This document shows positions 2,892-29,093 of a stretch of 33,524 nucleotides of DNA, in pieces. Position 1 is the first letter of the stretch. Every line of letters starts with the position of its first letter. The DNA is from a virus: positions 1 to 33,524 of the IMG/VR virus record IMGVR_UViG_3300021197_001832. The stretch is one strand, 5' to 3'. The translations under genes and the position numbers were made by a program. The notes beneath the pieces were generated by a model. It was not told the DNA's origin. It did no database searches and saw only the letters and a list, made by a program, of their open reading frames with translations.

Positions 2892-3227
2892 ATGAAACCA
2901 TTTGAAATAACTGACAGTGCAAAAGCACAGATAGAGAGATTACTCGAGAAGAACACGGGCAAGTACGCCGTGAGCCTGGCGGTGCTGGGTGGAGGATGTG
3001 CAGGATTCAAATATGAGTGGGGATTCGCCGACACCAAAGAAAGTGTCGCTGAAGGCGATCACATTGAGGACTGGGGCACAGGCAGGTTCGTTGTGGACGA
3101 GACTTCACTGCTGTATGTCATGGGCACCAAGATCGACTGGGTGGAGGAGACCTTTGGGTCACAGTTTGAGATATCCAATCCCAACAGCTCAAGCTCGTGT
3201 GGTTGCGGAGAATCGTTTGGCATATAA
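2892..3227 (+). CDS. IscA/HesB-type iron-sulfur cluster assembly protein
   Basis: An A-type Fe-S carrier of 111 aa, close to the usual length (E. coli IscA has 107). It opens with ITDSAKAQIERLL, the typical A-type start, and has the three ligand cysteines in the right places: Cys36 in GGGCAGFKYEW, and Cys103 and Cys105 in SSCGCGESF. Such proteins bind Fe or [2Fe-2S]/[4Fe-4S] clusters and pass them to client enzymes in the cytoplasm. No client is evident in the window. The TAA shares one base with the next ATG (TAATG), so the downstream gene is coupled. Family call is secure; phage role is inferred (maintaining Fe-S loading during infection). Confidence 0.9.
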   Translation: MKPFEITDSAKAQIERLLEKNTGKYAVSLAVLGGGCAGFKYEWGFADTKESVAEGDHIEDWGTGRFVVDETSLLYVMGTKIDWVEETFGSQFEISNPNSSSSCGCGESFGI

Positions 3228-3970
3228 TGGATACCGCTTTCATAATAGGCAACGGTGAATCAAGAAATATTTTTCCAATAGATAAACTAAAAGGACACGG
3301 CGTGATATATGGTTGTAACGCCATATACCGAGACCATCCAATGCTGTGTGATCACATAGTGGCGGTGAATCCTCCCATGTACGAAGAACTGGCCCAGTGG
3401 CACAACAACGGCAAGGAGTCTCCACACATCCACGGTCCACAAGACATCAGCAAATGGAACTACATCTGTGAAGGCGACCATGAACATGATGTGCCAGATG
3501 GCCTAAAGATCTACAGGGTATGGCGTGGTGGTGACGTCAAGAAAGGTGGCAAGATTAAAACAAATGATTTCAGTAAGGCACGAGGTTCTGGTTGCAGTGC
3601 GATTTTGATGGCCGCGGAGTCTGGAATAAAGAACGTGGTGATAATGGCATTTGATATCATGGGTGCCCAGCAGTGGGAGATGGACACACCCAGCAGGACA
3701 CAGAACAACATATACAAGAATTCAATCAACTATCCAGACAGGGCCAGCATGAAGGCCTATCTCAAATACGAATGGATGTACCAACTGAGGCAAACATTCC
3801 GAAAGTTTCCTGGAACAAATTTCTATTTTATTAATCGCAAGGAATACCTCGAAGGCAATCCATTCCTGCGTTGGTACTTCGATCAGCCAAACATCAAGTG
3901 TGGCATATATGCTGACCTGCAGAGATGGATAACAGGATCACGTGATGACATCAAATGGAAACAGTTATAG
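3227..3970 (+). CDS. DUF115/MptE-like or sialyltransferase-like protein
   Basis: The N-terminus AFIIGNGESRN followed by GVIYGCNAIYRDHP resembles the nucleotide-binding start of DUF115/MptE-like and phage sialyltransferase-like proteins, which act in glycan or motility-related modification. GSGCSAILMAAESGIKNVVIMAFD (about 131-154 from this start) fits the second half of that fold. Length is 247 aa from ATG 3227; I prefer this start over the longer frame because it gives a TAATG junction with the IscA-like gene and begins directly with the conserved strand. The substrate is unknown. It could act with the glycosyltransferase-like protein at 30616-31809 on surface or virion glycans (inference). 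Confidence 0.55.
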   Translation: MDTAFIIGNGESRNIFPIDKLKGHGVIYGCNAIYRDHPMLCDHIVAVNPPMYEELAQWHNNGKESPHIHGPQDISKWNYICEGDHEHDVPDGLKIYRVWRGGDVKKGGKIKTNDFSKARGSGCSAILMAAESGIKNVVIMAFDIMGAQQWEMDTPSRTQNNIYKNSINYPDRASMKAYLKYEWMYQLRQTFRKFPGTNFYFINRKEYLEGNPFLRWYFDQPNIKCGIYADLQRWITGSRDDIKWKQL

Positions 3971-4243
3971 GGCCTTGGTACTGCTGGCGTCCAACTGGTA
4001 AACTTTACGCATCTTGACGCCCACGCTCTGTGCGAACTTCTTGGAATCACATTTGCTACACACGTGCTTGTATTCGTTTGAAGCACGATCTGGATCAACC
4101 TTTGACTTTGGTCTCATGAATGTCTCTGAACAGGCATCGCACTTGAACACATAGATCAGGTTCTTCCTGTGGTAGTTGTGCATGGTGCCTAGTTTGCTCT
4201 CCCTCTTGTACAACTTCATCGTCTTTAGGGTTTCTATGAACAT
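3965..4243 (-). CDS. Small zinc-ribbon protein on the minus strand
   Basis: 92 aa from the ATG at 4243. Two CxxC knuckles, Cys35/Cys38 (FKCDACSETF) and Cys62/Cys65 (HVCSKCDSK), 23 residues apart, give a likely zinc ribbon; flanks are basic, consistent with nucleic-acid contact. No HNH or other nuclease motif is visible, so I do not call a homing endonuclease. A longer frame runs upstream on this strand but it would lie antisense to the fibre gene and lacks character. The stop overlaps the + strand gene end by 6 nt (convergent). A late box at 4249-4256 sits 5 nt before the ATG, so the transcript should start at or next to the start codon. Confidence 0.72.
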   Translation of the reverse strand: MFIETLKTMKLYKRESKLGTMHNYHRKNLIYVFKCDACSETFMRPKSKVDPDRASNEYKHVCSKCDSKKFAQSVGVKMRKVYQLDASSTKAL

Positions 4244-4248
4244 ATTAC

Positions 4249-4256
4249 TATTTAAT
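4249..4256 (-). promoter_or_regulatory. Late-type promoter box (ATTAAATA) for the zinc-ribbon gene
   Basis: On the minus strand the box reads ATTAAATA, 6 of 8 matches to the T4 late consensus TATAAATA. By T4 geometry transcription would start about 6 nt downstream, at the ATG (4243) itself. It overlaps the plus-strand box at 4254-4261. Confidence 0.5.
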
Positions 4257-4261
4257 AAATA
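4254..4261 (+). promoter_or_regulatory. Late-type promoter box (AATAAATA) for the fibre block
   Basis: AATAAATA, 7 of 8 matches to the T4 late consensus, 13 nt before the ATG at 4275. Together with the minus-strand box it forms the 13-nt near-perfect dyad TATTTAATAAATA. Confidence 0.65.
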
Positions 4262-4274
4262 CGAATAACACATT

Positions 4275-4763
4275 ATGGCGAGAATTAACATAGACATAGG
4301 AACACTGGGCAATCCGGCCACGGGCGATACTTTACGTACCGCTATGACCAAGATCAATACGAATTTCGAAGAGGTATTCCAACTAGTAGGTGATGGTGAC
4401 ACAGGTCTATTGACGACAAGTGTAACAAACGGTGATTTAAAGATACAGGCCAACGGTACGGGTATCATTGAAATAGATCAATTACAAATCAACAACACTG
4501 CGATCACACCAATAGTAACCAATAGTGACTTGACGTTAACAGCAAATGGCACAGGCAACATTGTTTTAGGTGCCGTGACCGTATCAGATAATAAAATAAC
4601 ATCTAATGAATCCAATGCAAACTTACAAATTGACGCCTCAGGTACTGGAGCAGTTGAAATCTTAACAGCAAAAGTCATTATGGCCAATCTACCTACAAGT
4701 GATCCAAGTGTTGCTGGACAGTTGTTCCGAAGCGGTAACGATCTTAGAGTAAGCACAGGCTAA
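4275..4763 (+). CDS. Short fibre-like repeat protein
   Basis: 162 aa, the shortest of four paralogous fibre-like proteins. The N-terminus INIDIGTLGNPATGDTLRTA with INTNFEEVFQL matches the shared head motif of this family. The rest is a tandem repeat of about 33 residues with the core N-x-[DN]-L-x-[IL]-x-A-x-G-T-G-x-[IV]-x-[IL] (near residues 55, 80 and 115), of the kind expected for a beta-helical or trimeric shaft. It ends with QLFRSGNDLRVSTG rather than a C-terminal tip domain, so it may be an adaptor or truncated fibre. Virion location is inferred from family and context. Confidence 0.72.
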   Translation: MARINIDIGTLGNPATGDTLRTAMTKINTNFEEVFQLVGDGDTGLLTTSVTNGDLKIQANGTGIIEIDQLQINNTAITPIVTNSDLTLTANGTGNIVLGAVTVSDNKITSNESNANLQIDASGTGAVEILTAKVIMANLPTSDPSVAGQLFRSGNDLRVSTG

Positions 4764-4792
4764 TAGCCGCTAGACGCATACACACAAAATAC

Positions 4793-4800
4793 GCTAAATA
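4793..4800 (+). promoter_or_regulatory. Late-type promoter box (GCTAAATA)
   Basis: GCTAAATA, 6 of 8 matches to the late consensus, 9 nt before the ATG at 4810. Confidence 0.45.
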
Positions 4801-4809
4801 TTAGTCGAT

Positions 4810-7419
4810 ATGGCACAAGAACTAATAAACATAGGCGCACAGGCCAATGATGGGACCGGTGATACTATCAGGAACGCTGGTCGTAAGATAAACGTTAACT
4901 TCACAGAATTTTTCGCGTTGCCTGTCGTAGCGTCTGATATAAGATTCGAGCAAAACAACATCGTGTCAAAGTCTTCAAACGCCGACATAGTGCTTAAAAC
5001 TGCAGGAACAGGAAATATATCGTTCCCGGCCCTCACAGTTGAAGACAACAACATCAAACTGACGAGGTCAAATGATGACTTGAAAATCACGGCCAACGGA
5101 TCAGGCAAGGTTGTCATAGGCGGGATAGGTTTCGCAGGCACGTCTATAGTGGCCACAGACTCCACAATAATAAACATAAATGAAAACTTGATAGTTGACG
5201 GAGATTTTGGAAACAACTCTAACACAATAAACACAGGCACCATGAGTGCAGGATCAGGCTCACAGGTGGGTAACCTAACACTGGCCAATGGATCCATAAC
5301 GGACTCATCGGGAGCCATCAGTTTCGGCAACGAGAACCTTACCACCACAGGAACACTGGTCGGGGCCACAGGATCTACAATCGGGAACCTAACGCTGGCC
5401 AATGGATCCATAACGGACTCATCCGGGGACATCAGTTTTGGCAACGAGAACATCACGACCACGGGAAATTTTAATGCAGGAGTAACAACACTCGGAAGCC
5501 TCACAGTATCCGGTGCGTCTTCATTCGTGGGAACAACCACAGTGGACAACCTCACATTCAACGACAACATCATAAGCACCAGTTCCAATGCAGACCTTAA
5601 CCTTACCCCAGGAGGCACGGGTGTGGTCAATGTGTCTAACTTGACGATAGATTCAAGTATAAATTTAAAAGACAACGTGATCAAGGTCACACGTTCCGAC
5701 GATGATCTTGTTCTTTCAGCAAATGGCACAGGTTCCGTACAAATGTCAAAAATCGATATGAACGAAGGAACAGTGGACAATGTTGTCATTGGTGGCACAA
5801 CACCGGCGGCAGGAACTTTCACTACATTGGCATTCTCGGGCACATCAATCGTGGCGGACGGTGTAACCATAACTGATAACACCATCACTGCGAATAGATC
5901 GAATGATAACCTGGAACTCGAGGCCAATGGATCAGGATATGTGAACATCAACGGGGTTTTGAACTTTCCAAACTCAGACGGTACCGTGGGACAACTTATC
6001 CAGACCAACGGAAGTGGACAGTTGTCGTGGCAGACTTCTCCGATCTTGTTCAGTGTGTCTACCATTGCGGACAATTCCAATACAATTTCATTCTCAACAA
6101 GTACTGAAATCGATCATGTGACATCGACGGGTTCACACAACAGGATAGAATCTGGCACAGTGGTGCAAGACAGTTTTGCAACTTCAAAGTATGACAGTGC
6201 ATGGTATTTGGCAGTCAACCGAGATGATATCAGTGATGAATTCGAGGTAACAAAACACTCCGTGGTGCACAACAATTCAGATGCTTTCTTAACGACTTCT
6301 ATCCAAGCCAAGACAGGAACCAACAATCATGTGATTACTTCGGCAGACATAAACAGCGGTCTTATAAGAGTGCTAGGCACAGGTAGTTCCCCTGAGAACT
6401 CCATGTCCTACTACAGGATCGGATTGGGAGATGATGACTCCACAGGATATTCCGGTGAAGACGAGGCGGCCGTCGTGATCAACGCGGACGTGGACAGTGC
6501 CAGCGAAGTAATTGACTCATGGGCACATGCATCATTTAGAGGCGCCAAGTATTACATATCTGTGAACAACGCATCCAAGACCGAATTGAGTAATATTGAG
6601 TGTTCAGTGGTCCACAACGGAACAACTGCTTTCATATCAACCTACAACATAGTGAACACAGGCAACAACGACCTTGTAACCTTGACTGCGGCCATAAACG
6701 GTAGTAACGTTGAGGTCAAGGCGGCCGGTCTTGAACCTAACCTAAGGATACACGCATACAGGATCATACTGGCCGACAACGAGGCAGACAGGAGTTCAAC
6801 AAACATAAACGTGATAGGAGATGTCACAGTTTCAAGTTCGACAACGACTCTGGACACTTTCAGCACTGGCACATACCAAGCGGCACATTACGTGATAGTT
6901 TCTCACAATGCTTCAGAAGGGCATTCAGCGATCTGTGAGGCGGCAGTGGTCAGTGATGGCACAAACGCATTCGTGACACAGTACGCACTTACGTCAACGA
7001 AAGGCACAGATCAGATCATATTGTCAGTCGGCCATGCAGGTAGCACCACAACACTGTCGGCAACTTCAACATCGGGCGGTTCTACAAAAGTTAACGCATA
7101 CAGGGTAAACTTATCAAGGGGTGCGGGCACGTCCTCCGCCTCGGCAACACTCGATTCGGTGAGTGCATCCAATATTAGATCTGCGAAATACAATGTTCAG
7201 GTGGTGGATGCCACAGGCGGGAACTATGAATTATTTGAAGCCAACGTAACCCATGATGGATCTAATGCGTATGTCAGCACATTCGGAAACGTGGGCAGTA
7301 CAACCGGTTTGATCACTGTCACAGCAGATATCGATAGCGGCAATTTAAGACTGTTAGGCACTATAAATAACACTAACGATCACGTGGTCAAAGTAATTAG
7401 AAGGGAAATGAACGTATAG
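4810..7419 (+). CDS. Large fibre-like protein with four C-terminal repeat domains
   Basis: 869 aa. It has the family head (INIGAQANDGTGDTIRNA, INVNFTEFF), then about 370 residues of shaft repeats built on S-N-[AD]-D-[LI]-x-L-x-x-x-G-T-G-x-[VI]. From about residue 430 there are four related domains of roughly 105-110 aa, each with a helix-strand opening (SAWYLAV, GAKYYISV, AAHYVIV, SAKYNVQV), a V-[VT]-[HS]-[DN]-G strand and a final Y/V-x-[VI]-x-[RL] strand. One such domain closes the next gene's protein. The architecture fits a tail or accessory fibre whose distal region was extended by domain duplication. Receptor binding is inference. Two 69-bp DNA repeats (5269-5337, 5383-5451) lie in the shaft. 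Confidence 0.75.
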   Translation: MAQELINIGAQANDGTGDTIRNAGRKINVNFTEFFALPVVASDIRFEQNNIVSKSSNADIVLKTAGTGNISFPALTVEDNNIKLTRSNDDLKITANGSGKVVIGGIGFAGTSIVATDSTIININENLIVDGDFGNNSNTINTGTMSAGSGSQVGNLTLANGSITDSSGAISFGNENLTTTGTLVGATGSTIGNLTLANGSITDSSGDISFGNENITTTGNFNAGVTTLGSLTVSGASSFVGTTTVDNLTFNDNIISTSSNADLNLTPGGTGVVNVSNLTIDSSINLKDNVIKVTRSDDDLVLSANGTGSVQMSKIDMNEGTVDNVVIGGTTPAAGTFTTLAFSGTSIVADGVTITDNTITANRSNDNLELEANGSGYVNINGVLNFPNSDGTVGQLIQTNGSGQLSWQTSPILFSVSTIADNSNTISFSTSTEIDHVTSTGSHNRIESGTVVQDSFATSKYDSAWYLAVNRDDISDEFEVTKHSVVHNNSDAFLTTSIQAKTGTNNHVITSADINSGLIRVLGTGSSPENSMSYYRIGLGDDDSTGYSGEDEAAVVINADVDSASEVIDSWAHASFRGAKYYISVNNASKTELSNIECSVVHNGTTAFISTYNIVNTGNNDLVTLTAAINGSNVEVKAAGLEPNLRIHAYRIILADNEADRSSTNINVIGDVTVSSSTTTLDTFSTGTYQAAHYVIVSHNASEGHSAICEAAVVSDGTNAFVTQYALTSTKGTDQIILSVGHAGSTTTLSATSTSGGSTKVNAYRVNLSRGAGTSSASATLDSVSASNIRSAKYNVQVVDATGGNYELFEANVTHDGSNAYVSTFGNVGSTTGLITVTADIDSGNLRLLGTINNTNDHVVKVIRREMNV
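5269..5337 (+). repeat. 69-bp coding repeat, copy 1
   Basis: Encodes a GNLTLANGSITDSSGAISFGNEN shaft turn. By eye it is identical over all 69 bases to copy 3 at 7881-7949 in the next gene. Confidence 0.85.
5383..5451 (+). repeat. 69-bp coding repeat, copy 2
   Basis: Starts 114 bp after copy 1 and differs from it at about six positions, including a GAC for GCC change (Asp for Ala). Confidence 0.8.
7362..7369 (+). promoter_or_regulatory. Possible late promoter (TATAAATA) inside the upstream gene's 3' end
   Basis: A perfect 8/8 late box, 52 nt before the ATG at 7422. It could serve the next fibre gene, but a chance match in AT-rich coding sequence is possible. Confidence 0.4.
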
Positions 7420-14384: not shown

Positions 14385-15020
14385 ATGTCAAACACATTCA
14401 CTTGGAAGATAAAATTCAAATCGATAATCATAGTTGACGGTGAACTGTTCGCCAACGAGTACAAACTGAACGTATCACTGACCCCACACACTGCGAGCCT
14501 AAAGGAGCAAACACAATATTTCGAGAGATTGAAAAATCTCTTCGAACAGGTTTTCGCAAACACCATAACAACGTGGAGGGATGAACCTCTCTACCACACG
14601 TTGAAGAAAAGCACCACGAACAGATTCATTGAATTACCAAAGCCGCCCTATGACCAGATCATGGCCGCGGTGTGTTTCTGCAAAGCCAACAGCATATTGG
14701 ACAGCAAGATAATCATTAACCACATTGAACTTTCATCATGGCAGGGCGATGGTATTACCTACACGGTTGACAAAGACAGCAAAGAGCTTATACTGTTAGA
14801 TAGACCCGATTGGTTCTCAGCGAAGTTCAGCAAATTTGATCCATGGTGGTTGAGGGCGGACACGGCAACATATGACCAAGAACTCGACAAAGGCATCTAT
14901 ACAGGACACTTCAGTTGGAACAATCAAGAGATTCCTGTTGACAAGAAGCACGAGTATCATGCTAAAATATTTGAGTTCCAACCAAAGGTACTAGATGGCG
15001 GCAAAGACAAAGATAAATGA
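14385..15020 (+). CDS. Hypothetical protein (211 aa)
   Basis: Not recognised. A soluble mixed alpha/beta protein: beta start (FTWKIKFKSIIIVDGELF), amphipathic helix (SLKEQTQYFERLKNLFEQVFANTITTW), then KPPYDQIMAAVCFCKANSILDSKIII and a Trp-rich segment (DPWWLRAD, GHFSWNNQEI). No signal peptide or membrane span. The near-leaderless late box suggests late expression. Its end overlaps the polymerase-like fragment by 26 nt. Confidence 0.66.
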   Translation: MSNTFTWKIKFKSIIIVDGELFANEYKLNVSLTPHTASLKEQTQYFERLKNLFEQVFANTITTWRDEPLYHTLKKSTTNRFIELPKPPYDQIMAAVCFCKANSILDSKIIINHIELSSWQGDGITYTVDKDSKELILLDRPDWFSAKFSKFDPWWLRADTATYDQELDKGIYTGHFSWNNQEIPVDKKHEYHAKIFEFQPKVLDGGKDKDK

Positions 15021-15516
15021 CCACGGTGATGTGATATTCTCTGAAGAGGATGTCATCGAGTTACTTTACACGAATCCGGATTTCGACATATCTAAACTTT
15101 ACCTCGACAGCATAGGCAAGTATTCAGCAAGTTTGAAAGAGCTGGGCGTAGACCTGCCTGTGATCAACACAGCACCCAAGAGACCCAAGCCGGAGATATT
15201 TGACAAGGCAAACTGTGATAACTGGCACATGCCTGACAAGTATTACCAAATAAATGTGCTACAATGGTTACTGGACAAATGTCAGAATGACGAAGAGAAA
15301 CTGAGAGTGCAAATGGAGTATGATCTGTTTGAAAAAAAACAGTTCATACGTGTGCTACAATTCCTGATATACTTCGTAGACACACTGAGGGCTAACAACA
15401 TGGTGTGGGGTGTAGGCAGGGGATCCAGCGTGGCCAGTTTCTGCTTGTTCTTGATAGGAGTACACAAGATCAATCCCATGCTGTACAATTTAGATATCAC
15501 CGAATTTTTGAGATGA
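14995..15516 (+). CDS. Fragment related to bacterial DNA polymerase III alpha (C-family palm start)
   Basis: 173 aa. The C-terminal third matches the start of the C-family polymerase palm: KLRVQMEYDL (~102-111) parallels the R-L-x-Y-E-L helix of DnaE, and GVGRGSSVAS (139-148) followed by IGVHKINPMLYNLDITEFLR parallels the DnaE pattern VGPGRGS-x-x-GS...IT-x-x-DPL-x-x-x-LLFERFL. The protein stops exactly there, before the PDxDxD aspartates would come, so it cannot polymerise DNA by itself. The first ~100 residues are unlike DnaE's PHP domain to my eye. It may be a repurposed palm fragment binding DNA or dNTP phosphate, or modulating host pol III; both are inference. Confidence 0.6.
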   Translation: MAAKTKINDHGDVIFSEEDVIELLYTNPDFDISKLYLDSIGKYSASLKELGVDLPVINTAPKRPKPEIFDKANCDNWHMPDKYYQINVLQWLLDKCQNDEEKLRVQMEYDLFEKKQFIRVLQFLIYFVDTLRANNMVWGVGRGSSVASFCLFLIGVHKINPMLYNLDITEFLR

Positions 15517-15543: not shown

Positions 15544-15924
15544 ATGGTAGCAAGAGCACCCAGAAAAAGAATGTATAGAACCATGCAAGGACGCATGGTA
15601 GACATAGAAAAACTACGAGCGGCCAACGAATCAGTACAGGCAGTTGGTAACATGAATGTCAATGCGAGGGGAGATGTGTTAGGAGCAGGTGGACAAGTTG
15701 TCACACCAAAGGAACAGATAATCAAGAAGTACTATGAACAGCCAAAAGGCATGGTTAGTGATGCCCCAACCAAAGGCAAACCTATGCCGGCGCCAGTGAA
15801 GACAGTACAGAAGATGACACCCGTAGCGGCCAAACCAGCACCAAAGAAAACGGTAGCAGTGAAACCAAAAATAGAGAGTACGGCCAAAAAAGGCATAGAC
15901 GCGGCACTTGACGGATTAGAATAA
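15544..15924 (+). CDS. Hypothetical basic protein with Ala/Pro/Lys-rich tail
   Basis: 126 aa, function unknown. An ordered N-terminal part (RKRMYRTMQGRMVDIEKLRAANESVQAVGNMNVNARGDVLG, then VTPKEQIIKKYYEQPKG to ~73) precedes a low-complexity tail of K, P, A and V (APVKTVQKMTPVAAKPAPKK) ending DAALDGLE. TAGGAG lies upstream as ribosome site. Such basic disordered tails occur in small virion or scaffold-type proteins, but no family is recognised. Confidence 0.68.
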   Translation: MVARAPRKRMYRTMQGRMVDIEKLRAANESVQAVGNMNVNARGDVLGAGGQVVTPKEQIIKKYYEQPKGMVSDAPTKGKPMPAPVKTVQKMTPVAAKPAPKKTVAVKPKIESTAKKGIDAALDGLE

Positions 15925-15945: not shown

Positions 15946-16389
15946 ATGGGACAACTAGAAGACTTACAAGCAAAAGGATTTGGATCACACGGTGGCAAGG
16001 AATACACTGTTGATTACGACATAACGCCACTCAAGAAGAGAGTGCTAGTTTCAGACATGCACTTCGGTGAGACAAAGACCAAGGGCGGAATCATACTCAC
16101 AGACGACGACGGATCAGAATCAGGAATACATCCTAGATGGGGTAAAGTTTATGCCATCGGTGACCAACAGGAAGACGTCAAAGTCGGAGAGTGGGTCATG
16201 GTGTCACATGGACGTTGGAGCAGAGGATTCAAGATCAAGAAAAAAGGTGTTGAACTGGAAGTGAGAATGATTGACGAGAATGACATCCTGTTGGTGTCAG
16301 AAGACGAACCGGTTCAGAACAGAACGCAGGCGGGTTATGTCAACACGGGTGGTATGCAACAGATGACCAAACTACCTGGCAATGACTAA
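15946..16389 (+). CDS. GroES-like co-chaperonin (gp31-like role)
   Basis: 147 aa. Residues ~28-125 follow the Cpn10 fold: KKRVLVSDM, ETKTKGGIILTDD (the mobile loop region with its hydrophobic GGI-[IL]-L), HPRWGKVYAIGD, VKVGEWVMV, and IDENDILLV, equal to the closing beta-strand of GroES. It should cap host GroEL during folding of phage proteins, as T4 gp31 does for the capsid protein. It is longer than GroES (97 aa), with an N-terminal extension and a polar C-terminal tail (~120-147) whose role is unclear. The 8-nt overlap with the next gene implies coupling. Confidence 0.82.
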   Translation: MGQLEDLQAKGFGSHGGKEYTVDYDITPLKKRVLVSDMHFGETKTKGGIILTDDDGSESGIHPRWGKVYAIGDQQEDVKVGEWVMVSHGRWSRGFKIKKKGVELEVRMIDENDILLVSEDEPVQNRTQAGYVNTGGMQQMTKLPGND

Positions 16390-17040: not shown

Positions 17041-18081
17041 ATGACACAACGTTTCGGTTTCTGTTGCAAATGGCTTAATGACACCAGCGAGTTTGGTGGC
17101 ATGAAAGTGAACGCTAAGGACAGGGAACTCAACGGCAGAAGTACAACCATGCGTTGGCTTCGTGAACACAAGGACGAAGCAGAGCAAAGACAGTGGGACA
17201 TCATGACCCACAACACACTCGCCGCACGTAGGTTGATACAACGTGTTGGTACACTGCCACCCGAACGCAGGATGGTGAGGCTGGGTAGCGAGATGCTACA
17301 GGGCTACACAGAGAAGGACTGGAAGTCATGGTGGCAACAACCTGACATACAGAGTCATTTAGAGAATCTATTCGCACCCGTTGGTGAGATGGCGAGGAAA
17401 CTAGATGTCAAGATCAGTTTCCATCCAGGACAATTCTGTGTGCTGTCGAGTGCAACACCAGACATAGTGGAACGTAGCATAGAAGAATTTGAATACCATG
17501 CGGACATGGCAAGATGGATGGGATTTGGCAAGAGCTTCCAAGATGGTTGCAAGATAAACGTACACATCTCAGGCAAGCAAGGACCAGATGGTATTATAAA
17601 GGCACTGCCTAGGTTATCGCCTGAAGCAAGGAACCTTATCACCATAGAGAATGACGAGATGAGTCATGGACTAGATCAGTCGTTGATGTTGGAAAAACAT
17701 CTAGCATTGGTACTAGACATACACCACCATTGGATCAGAGATGAGGAATACATTGAAGCAACAGATGACAGGGTAAAACGTGTGATAGATTCGTGGCGTG
17801 GTGTGAGACCCAGTATGCACTATTCATATTCAAGGGACGAACACCTTGCAGTGGCAGGACTAGGTGATAAAACACACACGGAGATGCATGACATCAAGAT
17901 GTTGCTGGAGCGTGGTTGCAAGAAACAGAAACTGCGGGCACACTCGGACCTATTACCAAACACAAAAGTAAATGACTGGGCATTGAGTTTCTCAGAAAAC
18001 TTTGACATACAGGTAGAGGCCAAAGGAAAAAACATGGCCACAGAACAATTATATAGACAATACCTAGAAAATTCTGTATAA
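17041..18081 (+). CDS. uvdE: UV DNA damage endonuclease (UvdE/UvsE family)
   Basis: 346 aa, full length for the bacterial family. It nicks DNA 5' to UV photoproducts and other distortions, starting alternative excision repair. The TIM-barrel metal site is visible: N-terminal RFGFCCKW, HPGQF (His128), NVHISG (His175), TIENDE (Glu203, Asp205), LVLDIHHH (Asp226, His228, His229) and MHYSYSRD (His260). The conserved SxxxxD and C-terminal EAKGKNMA also fit. It is transcribed from its own host-type promoter, which argues for early expression; UV repair of phage DNA at the sea surface is a reasonable role. T4 instead uses the unrelated DenV. Confidence 0.9.
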   Translation: MTQRFGFCCKWLNDTSEFGGMKVNAKDRELNGRSTTMRWLREHKDEAEQRQWDIMTHNTLAARRLIQRVGTLPPERRMVRLGSEMLQGYTEKDWKSWWQQPDIQSHLENLFAPVGEMARKLDVKISFHPGQFCVLSSATPDIVERSIEEFEYHADMARWMGFGKSFQDGCKINVHISGKQGPDGIIKALPRLSPEARNLITIENDEMSHGLDQSLMLEKHLALVLDIHHHWIRDEEYIEATDDRVKRVIDSWRGVRPSMHYSYSRDEHLAVAGLGDKTHTEMHDIKMLLERGCKKQKLRAHSDLLPNTKVNDWALSFSENFDIQVEAKGKNMATEQLYRQYLENSV

Positions 18082-19483: not shown

Positions 19484-19698
19484 AAGAGTTCAAACTTGTT
19501 GTGAAGGTTGGTGACCTTATAGAAGTGGGCAGGTTCAGGAATGTATCTACCAAGATCAAAAAAATAGAGTTGGATGAATACGGACAACCTGTTATAATAA
19601 CAAGCAAGGGTGCTAAAAAGTTATTAAGTTGTAGATTGTCAAAACTACATCCAGGTAGCAAGACACCAAAACAAATACTAATGGAAAAACGTAAATGA
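19480..19698 (+). CDS. Small basic protein (72 aa)
   Basis: Not recognised. Beta-strand pattern (KLVVKVGDLIEVGRF, STKIKKIEL, PVIITSKGAKKLL) suggests a small SH3-like barrel, with a basic tail (TPKQILMEKRK). It overlaps both neighbours by 4 nt and is locked to the clamp loader by ATGA, so it is probably made with the replication protein. Confidence 0.65.
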   Translation: MKEFKLVVKVGDLIEVGRFRNVSTKIKKIELDEYGQPVIITSKGAKKLLSCRLSKLHPGSKTPKQILMEKRK

Positions 19699-20621
19699 AA
19701 GAACTTTGGGTAGAAAAATACAGACCTAAGACATTGAAAGAATATGTTGTAAGGGACGAAGCACAGCGAAGTCAGATACAATCATGGATCACGGACAAAG
19801 CGATCCCGCATTTGCTATTGAGTGGTGCACCTGGTGTGGGCAAGACCACACTGGCAAAAGTATTGTTTGCAGAACTAGATGTCAGCAGTTATGACATACT
19901 GGAAATAAATGCTTCGAGAGAGAATTCAGTGGACACAGTTAGGGAGAAGATCAACAACTTTGTACAGATAATGCCATTCGGTGATTACAAATACGTATTA
20001 CTGGATGAGGCTGACTACATGAGTCCAAATGGACAGGCGGCACTGCGTGGCGTTATGGAGATGTATCACACATCAGCGAGATTCATATTGACTTGCAACT
20101 ATCCCAACAGAGTCATCCCTGCACTGCACAGCAGGTGCCAAGGCTTCCACATGGAAACTATTGACAAAACAGAATACACTGCAAGGGCTTGTGAAATTCT
20201 TATCACAGAGAGTGTGACCCCGGACATAGAAGTCCTGGACACTTATGTAAAAGCATCATATCCTGATCTAAGAAAATGCATCAACATGCTACAACAGAAT
20301 TGTAGAGATGGCAAACTGCAACCACCGGCAACAGGTGATTCAGGACAGCAGGATTACAGACTGCAAATGGTTGATCTGTTTAAACAAGGCAAAATAAATG
20401 AAGCAAGAAAACTTGTATGTGCCCAGGCGAGACCAGAAGAGTGTGAAGAGATATACAGATGGCTGTATGATAACCTAGACATCATAAGCAAGGAGGATGA
20501 ACTGCAAGACAAAGCAGTGCTGATAATCAAACAAGGGTTGGTTGATCATTCATTCGTGGCTGATCCAGAAATAAACCTAGCAAGTGTGATGATCAAACTA
20601 GCAAGGTTAGGTAATGGGTAG
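19695..20621 (+). CDS. 44: Sliding-clamp loader ATPase (T4 gp44-like)
   Basis: 308 aa; T4 gp44 has 319. It is an AAA+ protein that opens and loads the polymerase clamp on primed DNA. Start ELWVEKYRPKTLKEYV is the RFC-type opening. Walker A GAPGVGKT (44-51), Walker B LLDEAD (102-107), sensor 1 ILTCN (131-135) and the arginine-finger box SRC (146-148) are all present. In T4 the order is 45-44-62-regA-43; neither the clamp nor polymerase is recognisable here, so the replication genes are split relative to T4. The following 90 aa protein is not convincing as gp62. Confidence 0.88.
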   Translation: MKELWVEKYRPKTLKEYVVRDEAQRSQIQSWITDKAIPHLLLSGAPGVGKTTLAKVLFAELDVSSYDILEINASRENSVDTVREKINNFVQIMPFGDYKYVLLDEADYMSPNGQAALRGVMEMYHTSARFILTCNYPNRVIPALHSRCQGFHMETIDKTEYTARACEILITESVTPDIEVLDTYVKASYPDLRKCINMLQQNCRDGKLQPPATGDSGQQDYRLQMVDLFKQGKINEARKLVCAQARPEECEEIYRWLYDNLDIISKEDELQDKAVLIIKQGLVDHSFVADPEINLASVMIKLARLGNG

Positions 20622-21235: not shown

Positions 21236-21706
21236 ATGCATGATGTACTAGACATAATCAGAAATGTACAAACCTTATACGCAGTAGGTCCTACACTGGG
21301 AATATTAAAAGATTTCGAAAGAGTCGTGGACGAACTGGATGTGTATGTTTTTACCAATTGGGAAGACGGTGAATTACTATCCGGACCTGTAGATTCTAGA
21401 CATTTCGTCACGTGTTCATTCATGTGGCCTCTAGACAAGATGCCTGACCCGGTTGGCGGAAAGAGACTGACTGACAAGGGTTGCAAAGTCACATTCAAGA
21501 AAGATGAATTGTTAAAACCAAGAGCAATCAAGAGTCCGGAGGATTACAGACCCGGAACTACTAAAGGTAAGATCGATGCACATGACATTTGGGTAGTCGA
21601 GATCAGGATGCCGAAACAGTTGATCGGAAATATCAAGCACGGCAACGATGAGATAGAGAGACAGGAAGACATGGACATGGCTCCTGAAACTGGATTAGAA
21701 ATCTAA
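21236..21706 (+). CDS. Hypothetical late protein (156 aa)
   Basis: No function recognised, though sequence of this type (LKDFERVVDELDVYVFTNWEDGEL, VTCSFMWPLDKMPDP-x-GGKRL) looks familiar from marine T4-like phages. The C-terminal part (IDAHDIWVVEIRMPKQLIGNIKHG) is followed by an acidic tail. No signal or membrane segment. Near-leaderless late promoter and a one-base overlap with the next gene suggest co-expression with it late in infection. Structural role possible but unproved. Confidence 0.72.
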   Translation: MHDVLDIIRNVQTLYAVGPTLGILKDFERVVDELDVYVFTNWEDGELLSGPVDSRHFVTCSFMWPLDKMPDPVGGKRLTDKGCKVTFKKDELLKPRAIKSPEDYRPGTTKGKIDAHDIWVVEIRMPKQLIGNIKHGNDEIERQEDMDMAPETGLEI

Positions 21707-22446
21707 TGAACATACAAGAAGGACTTAAAGCAGGAGACCTAGAAGGCGTTGTAAACAAACGTTTCTCAGTGGATCAATTCAAATCCAAGATGGGTGATGA
21801 CAAGAACATTTTGGTTCTTAGTTTCACTGTTGACGGACAGGCACCGGCAAAGGACCTTGAACGTTTTGCTGAAGTGGGCTACAAGAGTGTGCTTGATGCA
21901 GACGCCACTCCAGGAACAATGGAAGACGGCAAACACAAAGTATTCATAGAGTTCGCAAGAGACTCATCAGTTGTCAAAAGCATAATGGCATTCCTGGAGG
22001 ACCTAAAAAAACTTACGAACATAGAAGAGTTTGAATACACGTACCACAAGGGCATAGACTCAACAATGGTTTCAGCAGAGACACTGGAAGCATCTATCCC
22101 GACCACACCAGAAGCATACGAAATGAGAGTTAATGAAATGAGAGTCAGCGAAGCCAGACACTTCTTTGACAAGTATGACATGATGGAATGCAAGATAAAC
22201 GAGAACACGATGTCTGTTAAAAAAACAGGTGCGGGACACGAACTAAAATTTGAGATACACAAATTTGGATCGACAGATGATATAATGAAAGAGACCAAGG
22301 CATTCAAGATAGACATGGATTCTATTGCAGAATGTACACATCTTACAAAGTATTTTGGCACATACGATATTACCAAAACAAACGAAAACCAATTCATTTT
22401 CACCAAGGGTGACCAGTCTGCACTTTTAAGTAAAAGCGGTTGGTAA
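21706..22446 (+). CDS. Hypothetical late protein (246 aa)
   Basis: N-terminal half with VVNKRFSVDQFKSKMGDDKNILVLSF, SVLDADATPGTMEDGKHKVFIEFARD and FLEDLKKLTNIEEFEYTYHKG; C-terminal half helical then beta (AYEMRVNEMRVSEARHFFDKYDM, TKYFGTYDITKTNENQFIFTKGDQ). I considered the gp45 clamp because of length and the nearby clamp loader, but see no sequence support. Acidic and soluble. Probably late, with the upstream gene; function unknown. Confidence 0.7.
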   Translation: MNIQEGLKAGDLEGVVNKRFSVDQFKSKMGDDKNILVLSFTVDGQAPAKDLERFAEVGYKSVLDADATPGTMEDGKHKVFIEFARDSSVVKSIMAFLEDLKKLTNIEEFEYTYHKGIDSTMVSAETLEASIPTTPEAYEMRVNEMRVSEARHFFDKYDMMECKINENTMSVKKTGAGHELKFEIHKFGSTDDIMKETKAFKIDMDSIAECTHLTKYFGTYDITKTNENQFIFTKGDQSALLSKSGW

Positions 22447-25191: not shown

Positions 25192-26055
25192 ATGAAAGAT
25201 TATTACAAGGTCCTAGGTGTAGGCGAGACCGCCACCACAGAGCAGATAAAGAAAGCATTCAAGGACATAGCCAAGAAAGAACACCCAGACAGGGGTGGCA
25301 ACAAGGACAGGTTCCAAGAGGCCAGTGAAGCACACGACACACTGAAAAATTCACAGAAACGACACGACTACGACACACAAAGAAAGTTTGGTGGCAGTGG
25401 ACAGGGACAGCACCCGTTCTTTAATGAAGACATATTTGGAGATTTCTTCTCAGGATTCAGTGGCGGAGACATGGACTTCAATGGAAGATTTAACTTCCAG
25501 GGAAATCCAAACATGCAAACAAAGACTTTTAGATCAAGACCACAAGCAAATCGTAATATACAGGTAAGGATGGCCATATCAATCAAAGAGGCCATGATGA
25601 ACAACGAGAAGACCATCAACTACAAACTTCCTTCGGGTAGAGAAGAGTTCGCAACAGTCAAAATACCGGCAGGTGTGCAACACGGAGTGACATTCAAGTT
25701 CGCTGGCATGGGAGATGACTCGATTAAAAATGTACCTCGTGGTGATCTACTTGTACAAATGAGTGTGTTGGATTCAGATGGATACACAAGGAAAGTTAAT
25801 GATCTATACACCGACAAGACCATCGACTGTTTCCAGGCCATAAGGGGTCATGAGTTAAAATTAAAGACACTGGAGGACAGTGTGATAACGGTCAAGGTGC
25901 CTGCAGGCACACAGCATGGAACATTATTGAGTGTAAAAGGTAAAGGAATGCCAGTCCACAGGACATTAAATATAAGAGGAAATCTTTACATTAGAGTTTT
26001 GGTACTGATACCACAATTATCAACAGCAGACCTAAAAAAGATAAAGGACTTATAA
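25192..26055 (+). CDS. DnaJ/CbpA-like co-chaperone (type II J-protein)
   Basis: 287 aa. J domain DYYKVLGVGETATTEQIKKAFKDIAKKEHPDRGG with the HPD tripeptide at 31-33, a Gly/Phe-rich linker (FNEDIFGDFFSGFSGGDMDF), and two beta substrate-binding domains (KIPAGVQHGVTFKFAGMGDD; VKVPAGTQHGTLLSVKGKGMPV). There is no CxxCxGxG zinc finger, so it is of CbpA type. It would stimulate host DnaK ATPase and deliver clients. The stop shares one base with the deformylase start, and ClpA-like follows, giving a folding/proteolysis operon from one host-type promoter. Confidence 0.9.
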   Translation: MKDYYKVLGVGETATTEQIKKAFKDIAKKEHPDRGGNKDRFQEASEAHDTLKNSQKRHDYDTQRKFGGSGQGQHPFFNEDIFGDFFSGFSGGDMDFNGRFNFQGNPNMQTKTFRSRPQANRNIQVRMAISIKEAMMNNEKTINYKLPSGREEFATVKIPAGVQHGVTFKFAGMGDDSIKNVPRGDLLVQMSVLDSDGYTRKVNDLYTDKTIDCFQAIRGHELKLKTLEDSVITVKVPAGTQHGTLLSVKGKGMPVHRTLNIRGNLYIRVLVLIPQLSTADLKKIKDL

Positions 26056-26564
26056 TGATAGAATTGTTTTCATACCCACACCACACACTAGAAACAGTCA
26101 GTACACCGTGGGACTGGAAGACAGATACCATAGAACATCACGCAGACCTCAACAAGTTTGAACATGAGATGATACAGTTCATGAAGGATGAGAGGGGCTT
26201 AGGACTTGCCGCTAACCAGATAGGCATTACCAAAAGATTCTTTGCTATAGGACACGAGTCGTTTGACACAATCTCAAAACCTGCTATAATATGGAACCCA
26301 AAGATAATAAAGTCAAGCAAAGAAAAAGTCATAGATGTAGAAGGTTGCTTGAGCTTTATGGATGTTTGGATAAAAGTGGAGAGACCAAGAAAAGTTGAAG
26401 TGCAATATGAATTATCAAATGGACAACTACACATGGCAGAGCTTGACGGCATGGAGTCGAAGTGTTTCCAACACGAGCTTGATCACTTGGACGGTATCAC
26501 TTTTAACAAGCGAGTCTCAAAACTGAAATGGGACATGGCAAAGAAAAAAGCACGAAAAAATTAA
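26055..26564 (+). CDS. def: Peptide deformylase
   Basis: 169 aa, usual bacterial length. It removes the formyl group from new N-terminal methionines. Motif 1 GLGLAANQ (48-55), motif 2 EGCLS (96-100, Cys98 metal ligand) and motif 3 QHELDHLDG (139-147; His140, Glu141, His144) are intact. Unlike the very short deformylases of some marine cyanophages, the C-terminal part is present (KRVSKLKWDMAKKKARKN). In the same operon as the DnaJ-like and ClpA-like genes. Confidence 0.93.
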   Translation: MIELFSYPHHTLETVSTPWDWKTDTIEHHADLNKFEHEMIQFMKDERGLGLAANQIGITKRFFAIGHESFDTISKPAIIWNPKIIKSSKEKVIDVEGCLSFMDVWIKVERPRKVEVQYELSNGQLHMAELDGMESKCFQHELDHLDGITFNKRVSKLKWDMAKKKARKN

Positions 26565-26791
26565 AAAAAGGGAAAAGGACTAAAGTATGGAAGATATTAA
26601 ACGGAACCTACAACAAGCAGACTCCAATACAGAAGGACGTGGAGAGATTAATTTGTGCAATACAACAGGAATTAGAATGGGACAAGAAGGACATAGCAAC
26701 ATATATAAAGATACAACAAGGCAACATAGATTGGAGTGGAGATGTTAGAAGCAAACGAAGGACTAGAAAAAATATTCGAAGACGCAGTTAA
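26528..26791 (+). CDS. Small basic ORF between deformylase and ClpA-like gene
   Basis: 87 aa, very basic at both ends, with VERLICAIQQELEWDKKDIATYIKIQQGNIDW as a plausible folded middle. It overlaps the upstream gene by 37 nt and the ClpA-like gene by 50 nt. The 177-nt gap between the flanking genes would otherwise be empty. No family recognised; the exact start is uncertain, and the overlap is larger than elsewhere in the window. Confidence 0.45.
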   Translation: MGHGKEKSTKKLKKGKRTKVWKILNGTYNKQTPIQKDVERLICAIQQELEWDKKDIATYIKIQQGNIDWSGDVRSKRRTRKNIRRRS

Positions 26792-29093
26792 AGAGGCGGA
26801 AAAGAGAAAACACGAATACGTGACCATAGAACACGTTCTACTTTCATTGGTCAAAGACAAAGTAATAGGAACCACACTAACAGAATTCAAAATTAATGTT
26901 GGGGCATTGATTAAAGACATAGAAGATTATCTTGATACAAAATGCAATGACATAGTGTCCAAGGGTGAAAATCCAGTAGTCCCAAGAAAGACCGCGTCAC
27001 TGGAGAGACTAATGAACCGAGCATTCACACAGGCACTGTTCCAAGGTAGACAAGATGTGACTTCGATTGACATACTGATCAGCATATTCGCAGAGAAGAA
27101 AAGCTATGGTGCATTCTTCCTTAAGAAACATAAAGTGGACAAACAGGATCTAATGGATCTCGTATCTACAGAGACCATACTGGACGAGGGAATGGCATCA
27201 ATGGGTGGACCACAGCAACCCGGTGGTGAACAAAAATTAAGACCCAATCAAGCAGATAGAATATTAAATGCTTATTGTGAGAACTTGAATCAAAAATATC
27301 TTGACAAGAAGATTGATCCAGTGATAGGTCGAGAAGAAGAAACAAACAATTTAAAACAGATATTAGCAAGAAGAAACAAGAACAATGTACTGATAGTGGG
27401 TGATCCTGGTGTTGGTAAGACAGCAGTTGTGGAAGGACTTGCTAGAAGGATTGCAAAGAACAAAAAGGATATACCCGAATATTTGAAGGATCATATTGTA
27501 TTCAGTTTAGACGTCAACAGCTTGATTGCAGGAAGTAAATTTAGAGGTGACTTTGAGGAGAGATTGAAAATGATCGTTAACGCATTAGATCAAAAAGGCA
27601 AAACAATATTATTCATTGACGAAGCACACATGATCGTTGGTGCTGGCGCAACAGGACAAGGCAATAACATGGACATGGCAAACATGTTAAAACCTGCATT
27701 ATTAAAAGGATCGATCAAAGTTGTTGCTTCTACCACTTGGGAAGAATACAGAAAGTATTTCGAGAAGGATAGAGCATTGATGAGGAGATTCCAAAGACTG
27801 CAAGTTGGAGAACCTTCGAAGGAAACATCTATTAAGATTCTGAAAGGTGTGAAACAATATTATGAATCATTTCATAAATGCACTATAACCGATGAGGCCT
27901 GTGAGGACGCAGTAGATTATTCAAGCAAGTTTATAGCAGACAAGAAACTGCCGGACAAGGCGATTGACATCATAGATGTTGCCTGTGCAAGACTGAGATT
28001 GAATGGCACCAAGGACGGTGTAATTGATCATGACGAAATCATACATGAGTTAAGTGTTATGACAGGTATCAGTATAGAGCAATTGAGTCAGAAACAAGCA
28101 AGTAATTTGAAAACTCTGGAAGAGAAGATGAAATTACAGGTGTTTGGACAGGACAAAGCAATAAACACAATCACAGACAAGATACTTGTTGCAAGGGCAG
28201 GACTTAAAAACCTAAACAAGCCAGTTGGATCATTCCTATTCCTTGGACCAACAGGTTGTGGTAAGACCGAGACTGCAAGACAACTGGCGAAAACACTAGG
28301 TGTAGAACTTGTAAGATTTGATATGTCAGAATATCAAGAGAAACATTCTATTGCAAAACTGATTGGATCACCTCCGGGCTATGTAGGCTATGAAGATTCT
28401 AACATGGGTGGTGGTATGTTTATTAACGAAGTTGAAAAGAATCCACACGCAGTTGTGTTGTTTGATGAGATAGAGAAAGCACACAGAGATGTATCTAACA
28501 TGTTGCTACAAGTAATGGACTACGGAACAGTTACAGGAAGTAATGGCAAGAAAGCAGACTGCAGAAACATCACACTTATAATGACATCTAACCTAGGTGC
28601 AGAAGCTATGGAAAGAAACAACATAGGGTTTGGTAAGAGCGAAAGAGAAGGCGAGGACGACAATGCACTTAAGAAGTTCTTCCCACCAGAGTTTAGGAAC
28701 AGACTGGACGCAGTGATCAAGTTTGATAAACTAGGTGAGAAAACAATGAAATCTATTGTCAAGAAGTTCTTGCAAGAACTTAACACAATGACCATGGAGA
28801 AAGATGTTGAGGTAAATGCAACAGATCCAGCACTTGACTACTTGGTCAAGAAAGGGTTTGATGCTAAACTGGGTGCGAGACCCTTACAGAGAATCATAGA
28901 CGAAGAGATCAAGAATCCTCTGTCCAAGATGATATTGTTCGGGGAACTTAACGAAGGTGGAATGGTAGAAGTCACGCTATCAGAAGATGTTGTTCCAAAA
29001 CTTACAGTAGAATTCAAAGCAAACAAGATCAGTGCAAAAATAACCAATAAAGAGAAAAAAAAATCCAAAGTAAAAAATGAGAAAACATCATAA
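26742..29093 (+). CDS. ClpA-like AAA+ unfoldase
   Basis: 783 aa from ATG 26742 (a GTG two codons earlier is possible). Clp N domain with EKRKHEYVTIEHVLLSLV; AAA domain 1 with Walker A GDPGVGKT (~220-227) and Walker B ILFIDEAH (~289-296); AAA domain 2 with GPTGCGKT (~502-509) and VVLFDEIEKAH (~571-581); FFPPEFRNRLD near 650. No long ClpB-type middle coiled coil. NNIGFGKS (~626-633) holds an IGF tripeptide where ClpA has its ClpP-docking IGL loop, so it could feed substrates to host ClpP. No ClpP is encoded here. Last in the proteostasis operon. Confidence 0.9.
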   Translation: MLEANEGLEKIFEDAVKEAEKRKHEYVTIEHVLLSLVKDKVIGTTLTEFKINVGALIKDIEDYLDTKCNDIVSKGENPVVPRKTASLERLMNRAFTQALFQGRQDVTSIDILISIFAEKKSYGAFFLKKHKVDKQDLMDLVSTETILDEGMASMGGPQQPGGEQKLRPNQADRILNAYCENLNQKYLDKKIDPVIGREEETNNLKQILARRNKNNVLIVGDPGVGKTAVVEGLARRIAKNKKDIPEYLKDHIVFSLDVNSLIAGSKFRGDFEERLKMIVNALDQKGKTILFIDEAHMIVGAGATGQGNNMDMANMLKPALLKGSIKVVASTTWEEYRKYFEKDRALMRRFQRLQVGEPSKETSIKILKGVKQYYESFHKCTITDEACEDAVDYSSKFIADKKLPDKAIDIIDVACARLRLNGTKDGVIDHDEIIHELSVMTGISIEQLSQKQASNLKTLEEKMKLQVFGQDKAINTITDKILVARAGLKNLNKPVGSFLFLGPTGCGKTETARQLAKTLGVELVRFDMSEYQEKHSIAKLIGSPPGYVGYEDSNMGGGMFINEVEKNPHAVVLFDEIEKAHRDVSNMLLQVMDYGTVTGSNGKKADCRNITLIMTSNLGAEAMERNNIGFGKSEREGEDDNALKKFFPPEFRNRLDAVIKFDKLGEKTMKSIVKKFLQELNTMTMEKDVEVNATDPALDYLVKKGFDAKLGARPLQRIIDEEIKNPLSKMILFGELNEGGMVEVTLSEDVVPKLTVEFKANKISAKITNKEKKKSKVKNEKTS

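Follow-up and report, generated by a model that had tools for sequence, protein, structure and literature searches.

A stand-alone DnaE palm segment in a marine T4-like phage as the probable N-terminal half of a split minimal DNA polymerase III alpha

Why should a T4-like phage encode, as a separate protein, a piece of the C-family replicase DNA polymerase III alpha? The window analyzed here, meaning the whole stretch of 33,524 nucleotides that makes up virus record IMGVR_UViG_3300021197_001832, contains a 173-aa open reading frame, opening with ATG and closing with TGA, that resembles the first part of the DnaE palm and stops before the catalytic aspartates. An earlier note, made from the sequence alone, described this gene as an orphan fragment, unexpected in a phage type that uses a family-B polymerase, and proposed a repurposed module serving as a decoy or inhibitor of host Pol III or as a nucleotide-binding protein. 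Our analysis favors a different answer. With a probability that we put at roughly 0.88, the gene encodes the N half of a split minimal C-family (DnaE) polymerase whose active site is completed non-covalently by a distant protein of ~190-215 aa, with nucleotide addition being secondary to that of the PolB replicase. The features on which the argument draws are collected in Table 1.

Table 1. The putative split-polymerase gene of the window and its neighbors.
Feature	Coordinates	Strand	Evidence or remark
Upstream gene, 211 aa, function not assigned	14385..15020	+	Overlaps the start of the N half by 26 bp
Probable N-terminal half of split minimal DNA Pol III alpha, 173 aa	14995..15516	+	PF07733, phrog_11127, AF2/Foldseek, dN/dS
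G-V-G-R-G-S-S motif, residues 139-145, dNTP-triphosphate-binding GS loop of Pol-beta-like palms	15409..15429	+	Read from sequence; conserved in homologues
Downstream neighbor phrog_14844, 126 aa, no assigned function	15544..15924	+	PHROG E 4e-10
GroES-like co-chaperonin (gp31-like)	15946..16389	+	PF00166 E 1.8e-9; phrog_931, phrog_3188
T4 gp44-like clamp loader	19695..20621	+	phrog_168 E 2.6e-78; AAA PF00004 E 1.4e-14; weak Gp44_lid

The relationship of the protein to Pol III alpha emerges from profile searches and from structure prediction alike. PF07733 matches it with an E-value of 5.8e-10 over profile positions 16-94 of 260, so that the catalytic part of the profile is absent from the match, and the NCBIfam DnaE models match the same stretch, while phrog_11127, a 171-aa family labeled 'DNA polymerase', aligns with the entire protein (E 2.6e-45). 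A profile of the N-half family (79 relatives) aligns with residues 320-392 of E. coli Pol III alpha and ends ~9 residues short of D401, which we take, together with D403, to be a catalytic aspartate of that enzyme. The protein therefore corresponds to the first palm segment, complete with its GRGS loop, as a free-standing product in the 170-180 aa range that ends ahead of the catalytic DxD. The catalytic Asp triad that a full DnaE or PolC would possess is absent from the polypeptide, and no Pfam match to PHP, thumb, fingers, or C-terminal domains was obtained within its 173 residues. An AlphaFold2 model of the N half (pLDDT 88.8) was compared with the PDB by Foldseek, and the top 12 matches were all Pol III alpha chains (best E 3.7e-3), with 5lew superposing at 3.1 A over 107 columns. 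E-values of this order, here and for the second half described below, are modest because the models represent a small part of large chains.

Comparison with relatives indicates that the gene is complete in this form. Eighty relatives among viral contigs, 65-92% identical to it, nearly all have the same length and the same end; the N-half profile returned at least 600 matches among viral contigs, and same-length homologues occur in hundreds of them. The N half likewise measures ~169-181 aa in eight named phage genomes from several genera (MIJ3, 121Q, Phosso, SCTP-2, Atu_ph07, GAP32, XaC1, and Slicko01). Across close relatives with usable dS, dN/dS is 0.04-0.07, and the gene is thus under strong purifying selection. 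Much of the earlier note is borne out by these results: the C-family palm homology, the palm-like fold, the natural stop before the catalytic aspartates, the constancy of length in other phages, and a natural overlap with the upstream gene. Its statement that the last ~70 residues track DnaE was right about the homology and slightly short on extent, the homologous part covering ~80-95 residues.

The part of the enzyme that is missing from this protein was sought elsewhere in the same phage genomes. At its default threshold, PF17657 (fingers) did not find a second half in seven jumbo phages, and at a relaxed threshold it gave weak matches in 5/7 of them, to ORFs of 191-216 aa that begin at a D-I-D-I-D motif ('..TDIDIDF..'). 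These ORFs align as one family, phrog_11778, with conserved DxDxD, H..G, KxDxL, RPxK, and FKKxH motifs, of which DxDxD, KxDxL, and FKKxH are invariant in the alignment of the initial set. With a dedicated second-half profile, MIJ3, SCTP-2, and Slicko01 also proved to contain the partner. Judged by its motifs, the phrog_11778 gene (~190-215 aa) carries what the N half lacks, with D-x-D-x-D at its start, the finger motifs, and the third Asp of the catalytic site. The second-half profile also matches mycobacterial DnaE, weakly and in a colinear fashion (PDIDIDF at 413, KMDFL, ..RP at 664, FNKSHA at 773), and an AlphaFold2 model of the second half (pLDDT 91.5) has only DnaE and PolC among its top 14 Foldseek matches in the PDB (best E 4.2e-4). 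No match to PHP or C-terminal domains was obtained in the second half either. Furthermore, the distance from the third Asp of DxDxD to HxxG is 27 residues, compared with ~80 in an unsplit 563-aa mini-DnaE from a related marine contig, and the thumb is therefore essentially absent. Just upstream of the second half we also observed a conserved protein of ~230 aa with an N-terminal C2H2-like zinc finger (L210:592-1275 in our contig labels, with equivalents in L211, L142, L175, L105, L107, and L109). The L210 copy belongs to phrog_11058, a family with no assigned function, and this protein is a candidate partner of the split polymerase.

The same mini-DnaE allows the position of the cut to be placed with some precision. 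Its natural order is ...ARFLN-PNRDD-LPDVDIDF..., with residue 95 as the last one covered by the N-half profile and ~102 as the first of the PDVDIDF motif. Second halves start at the position equivalent to LPDVDIDF, so that no more than ~5 residues of linker are lost in the split. On either side of this cut the active site is almost perfectly preserved. Among 140 distinct N halves, G139, G141, R142, G143, and S144 (window numbering) are kept in 139-140, with G139, R142, G143, and S144 invariant in all 140, and in the second half D3, D5, and D7 occur in 134/134 and D68 in 135/135 distinct sequences, while the RPxK and FKKxHAxxY finger motifs are kept in 130-135 of 134-135. Residue conservation of this kind in both halves reads as the pattern of a working active site and not of a decoy.

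The two halves also occur together. Every one of the eight full-length phage records with a short N half contains the second half as well. In the numbering of each record, the distance between the two is 11 kb (Slicko01), ~31-44 kb (121Q, GAP32, XaC1, and MIJ3), 116 kb (SCTP-2), 182 kb (Atu_ph07), or 224 kb (Phosso). Nine metagenomic contigs of at least 200 kb were examined with both profiles, and seven have both halves (G019, G022, G026, G042, G044, G045, and G058). The partner was not found in the other two, a 289 kb contig with the N half only and a 278 kb contig with the second half only; both are linear and without end repeats, and are therefore probably incomplete. Across 19 genomes or bins, the distance matrices of the N half and the second half are correlated (Mantel r 0.757, with 0/5000 permutations as high), which shows joint vertical inheritance and not contact, because any pair of genes passed on vertically in the same genome should behave in this way. 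PolB is present in 7/7 named phages, such that the split enzyme coexists with a family-B polymerase.

For the phage of the window itself the pairing has to be approached through relatives. The window belongs to an uncultured marine group whose N half is ~22-36% identical to that of the named phages. The second half was not found in the 33.5 kb window, in 16 contigs of the same group (30-67 kb), or in a 103 kb contig of the group. Two MAG bins, labeled Candidatus Pelagibacter and Rickettsiales, contain close relatives of the window N half (93% and 61%, respectively), and each of them also holds a family-B polymerase and a second half, with 73% identity between the two second halves. The bin labels are a hint, and no proof, of SAR11-type hosts. 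PolB (887-922 aa) and the N half lie on one contig in four contigs of the group, in keeping with the expectation of the earlier note that a T4-like phage would have a family-B polymerase; the gp44-type clamp loader is within the window and PolB outside it. Contigs with the second half contain UvsW-, primase-, and DnaB-type genes, on our reading of their ORFs. A search for common genes bridging the N-half and second-half contigs gave only weak paralogue or tail-fiber matches and no physical link. The two sets of contigs therefore represent different genome regions; they have no replication genes in common, which is what separate portions of a single genome should show. Taken with the co-binning and with the situation in relatives, this constitutes good but indirect evidence for pairing in the window's phage.

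The unsplit mini-DnaE is itself found within this group (L380:91-1782, minus strand, equivalent to 3609-5297, minus strand, of contig G067; its start is also present in L381). It matches PF07733 (E 8.9e-44), PF17657 (E 5.9e-15), and phrog_405, with no PHP match, and its neighbors in some phages of the window group are a DnaB-type helicase and endonuclease III, with the second half of the split enzyme ~5 kb away. It was not found in other second-half contigs spanning the corresponding region.

The surroundings of the N half are also similar between the window and its relatives. The upstream gene has no Pfam or PHROG match below 1e-2, and a gene overlaps the start of the N half from upstream in 121Q, XaC1, GAP32, and MIJ3 too, a likeness of position and not necessarily of descent. 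In 121Q, MIJ3, Phosso, Atu_ph07, SCTP-2, GAP32, and XaC1 the next gene after the N half measures ~340-460 bp, a GroES-like gene occupies the equivalent position in MIJ3, 121Q, Phosso, and Atu_ph07, and the gp44 clamp loader lies conserved a few genes 3' of the N half in related phages. The order of N half, short gene, GroES-like gene, and later gp44 clamp loader is thus common to the window and most of the named phages. An ORF at 21706-22446 was considered as a gp45 clamp and rejected, as it matches the virion structural family phrog_13138.

Several other genes of the window merit brief description. A UV-damage endonuclease, UvdE, is encoded near the Pol III half (17041-18081, plus strand; PF03851 E 1.7e-29), and in addition to the GroES-like gene there is a chaperone and protease cluster at 25192-29093 (plus strand) with DnaJ, peptide deformylase, and a ClpA/ClpB-like double AAA ATPase. 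Four consecutive ORFs on the plus strand between 4275 and 10799, starting at 4275, 4810, 7422, and 9051, have internal repeats and a common N-terminal motif (..INIG..ANDGTGDxLRxAxxKIN.NFxE..) and look like tandem paralogues; the ORF at 4275 matches the T4 gp10-type family of baseplate wedge and tail-fiber connector proteins. A small protein at 2892-3227 (plus strand) has a C-terminal CGCG and resembles, by eye, A-type iron-sulfur scaffold proteins, and its sole family match is to the unnamed PHROG phrog_17776.

These observations enable us to propose how the two proteins may work together. The N half would supply the first part of a Pol-beta-like palm, with its GxGRGS loop holding the triphosphate of the incoming nucleotide, and the second half, encoded tens to hundreds of kb away, would supply the finger helices together with D-x-D-x-D and the third Asp needed for catalysis. 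In cyanobacteria, too, DnaE is encoded by two distant genes, and there the halves carry trans-splicing inteins. Unlike the cyanobacterial proteins, neither phage half is flanked by an intein, the N half ending in EFLR-stop and the second half beginning with MPDVDIDF; we therefore rejected a split intein, and the association would have to be non-covalent. In this model the chain break falls just before the catalytic aspartates, one active site is rebuilt from two chains, and the rebuilt site may add nucleotides beside the T4-type family-B replicase in gap filling, repair, or short lagging-strand synthesis. We infer the physical assembly of the halves, their polymerase activity, and their cellular role from the evidence set out above, having found no experiment in the literature searched on whether the two can form an active enzyme. 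As far as sequence allows us to judge, the two halves together would constitute a thumb-less, PHP-less Pol III core cut just before the catalytic aspartates. That such an enzyme acts as a processive polymerase is doubtful, because it is minimal and lacks a thumb, a PHP domain, and a recognized clamp- or tau-binding region.

The absence of thumb and clamp contacts is also the reason for considering that the enzyme is split as we propose, yet is a nucleotidyltransferase other than a polymerase, engaged in terminal transfer, nucleotide sensing, or the modification of RNA or protein. The Pol-beta-like fold is common to many non-polymerase nucleotidyltransferases, the thumb is missing, and a family-B replicase is already at hand. 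However, the retention of finger motifs typical of DnaE in nearly all second halves, together with the fact that every significant structural match is a DNA polymerase, makes this explanation unlikely, although less so than the alternatives that follow.

Far less probable is the idea, raised in the earlier note, that the protein works on its own as a decoy or inhibitor by imitating the palm of host Pol III. The protein alone has no catalytic residues, and phages are generally known to mimic replication proteins of their hosts. The loop residues invariant in 140 homologues fit catalysis and not mimicry, however, the hosts of the homologues are very different (Enterobacteria, Pseudomonas, Agrobacterium, and Sinorhizobium), and a matching second half is present in every full-length genome tested. 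With the missing half recovered in related phage genomes as a separate conserved gene that starts where the N half stops, the description as an orphan is not supported. The notion of a nucleotide-binding protein came closer, as it is the GRGS loop of the active site that binds the triphosphate, but the protein is better seen as half of a split enzyme than as a repurposed module that stands alone. Finally, gene decay, or a frameshift or misassembly in a full-length DnaE, would account for a truncated profile match and for nothing else, and can be dismissed given the length and end kept in nearly all of the 80 viral contigs and in the eight named phages, the low dN/dS, and a second-half profile search of all 33.5 kb of the window that found no downstream continuation of DnaE, so that the ORF is not a frameshifted full-length gene.

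The split polymerase interpretation has a clear precedent. A split minimal DNA Pol III alpha was reported from sequence for group 2.2 jumbo phages and proposed there to be a relic that stands close to early Pol III (Iyer et al. 2021, Viruses 13:63, PMC7824862). The system described there and ours agree in having the N-terminal palm subdomain that binds the NTP as a protein by itself (phrog_11127), in the accompanying family-B polymerase and gp44-type clamp loader, and, probably, in a second gene far away that encodes the subdomain binding Mg and template (phrog_11778). The passages of that paper drawn on here do not name the window group, which differs from those phages in being uncultured, marine, and divergent (~22-36% identity), with the second half seen only in co-binned contigs. 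Two genome reports had also recorded the N half, that of phage CBB (CBB_328; PMC5259590) calling it a truncated Pol III alpha and that of Atu_ph07 (gp316; PMC6102473) a Pol III alpha subunit, and the portions of these two reports used here make no mention of a second half. In the Rak2-like phages (CBB_328, Atu_ph07 gp316, GAP32_323, and 121Q gp56) the N half has the same end point, a length of 170-180 aa, and a similar neighborhood, at ~30-36% identity to that of the window. PF07733 has been recorded in 51.9% of the phages of one marine jumbo cluster (PMC9123017). Bacterial DnaE and PolC have the same first palm segment with its GxGRGS loop, whereas the window polypeptide is without their PHP, thumb, fingers, clamp-binding, OB, and tau-binding regions and their catalytic Asp. 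The split enzyme and the truncated N half were thus known already; the present work adds the marine group to which the window belongs, the precise position of the cut, the nearly universal conservation of active-site residues in both halves, the pairing test, and the sporadic extra unsplit mini-DnaE.

A wider picture, which we offer tentatively and at less than even odds, is that the phages of the marine T4-like window group combine a family-B replicase with a non-covalent, two-piece, thumb-less Pol III core and, in some members, with the unsplit mini-DnaE as a third polymerase. The split enzyme could then be an active second polymerase for gap filling or the lagging strand, or a relic near early Pol III along the lines proposed by Iyer et al.

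Labels such as 'truncated' or 'hypothetical' for the genes of the two halves are misleading, and the system is abundant in marine metagenomes and not confined to the cultured jumbo phages. It is unusual for an enzyme to have its palm domain cut just before the catalytic aspartates and to be kept in that form by phages of great diversity, and at ~370 residues in two chains it would be the smallest Pol III core met in the present analysis. Why phages with a good family-B replicase keep a split Pol III core is a question that lends itself to direct testing, given two small proteins with known active-site residues.
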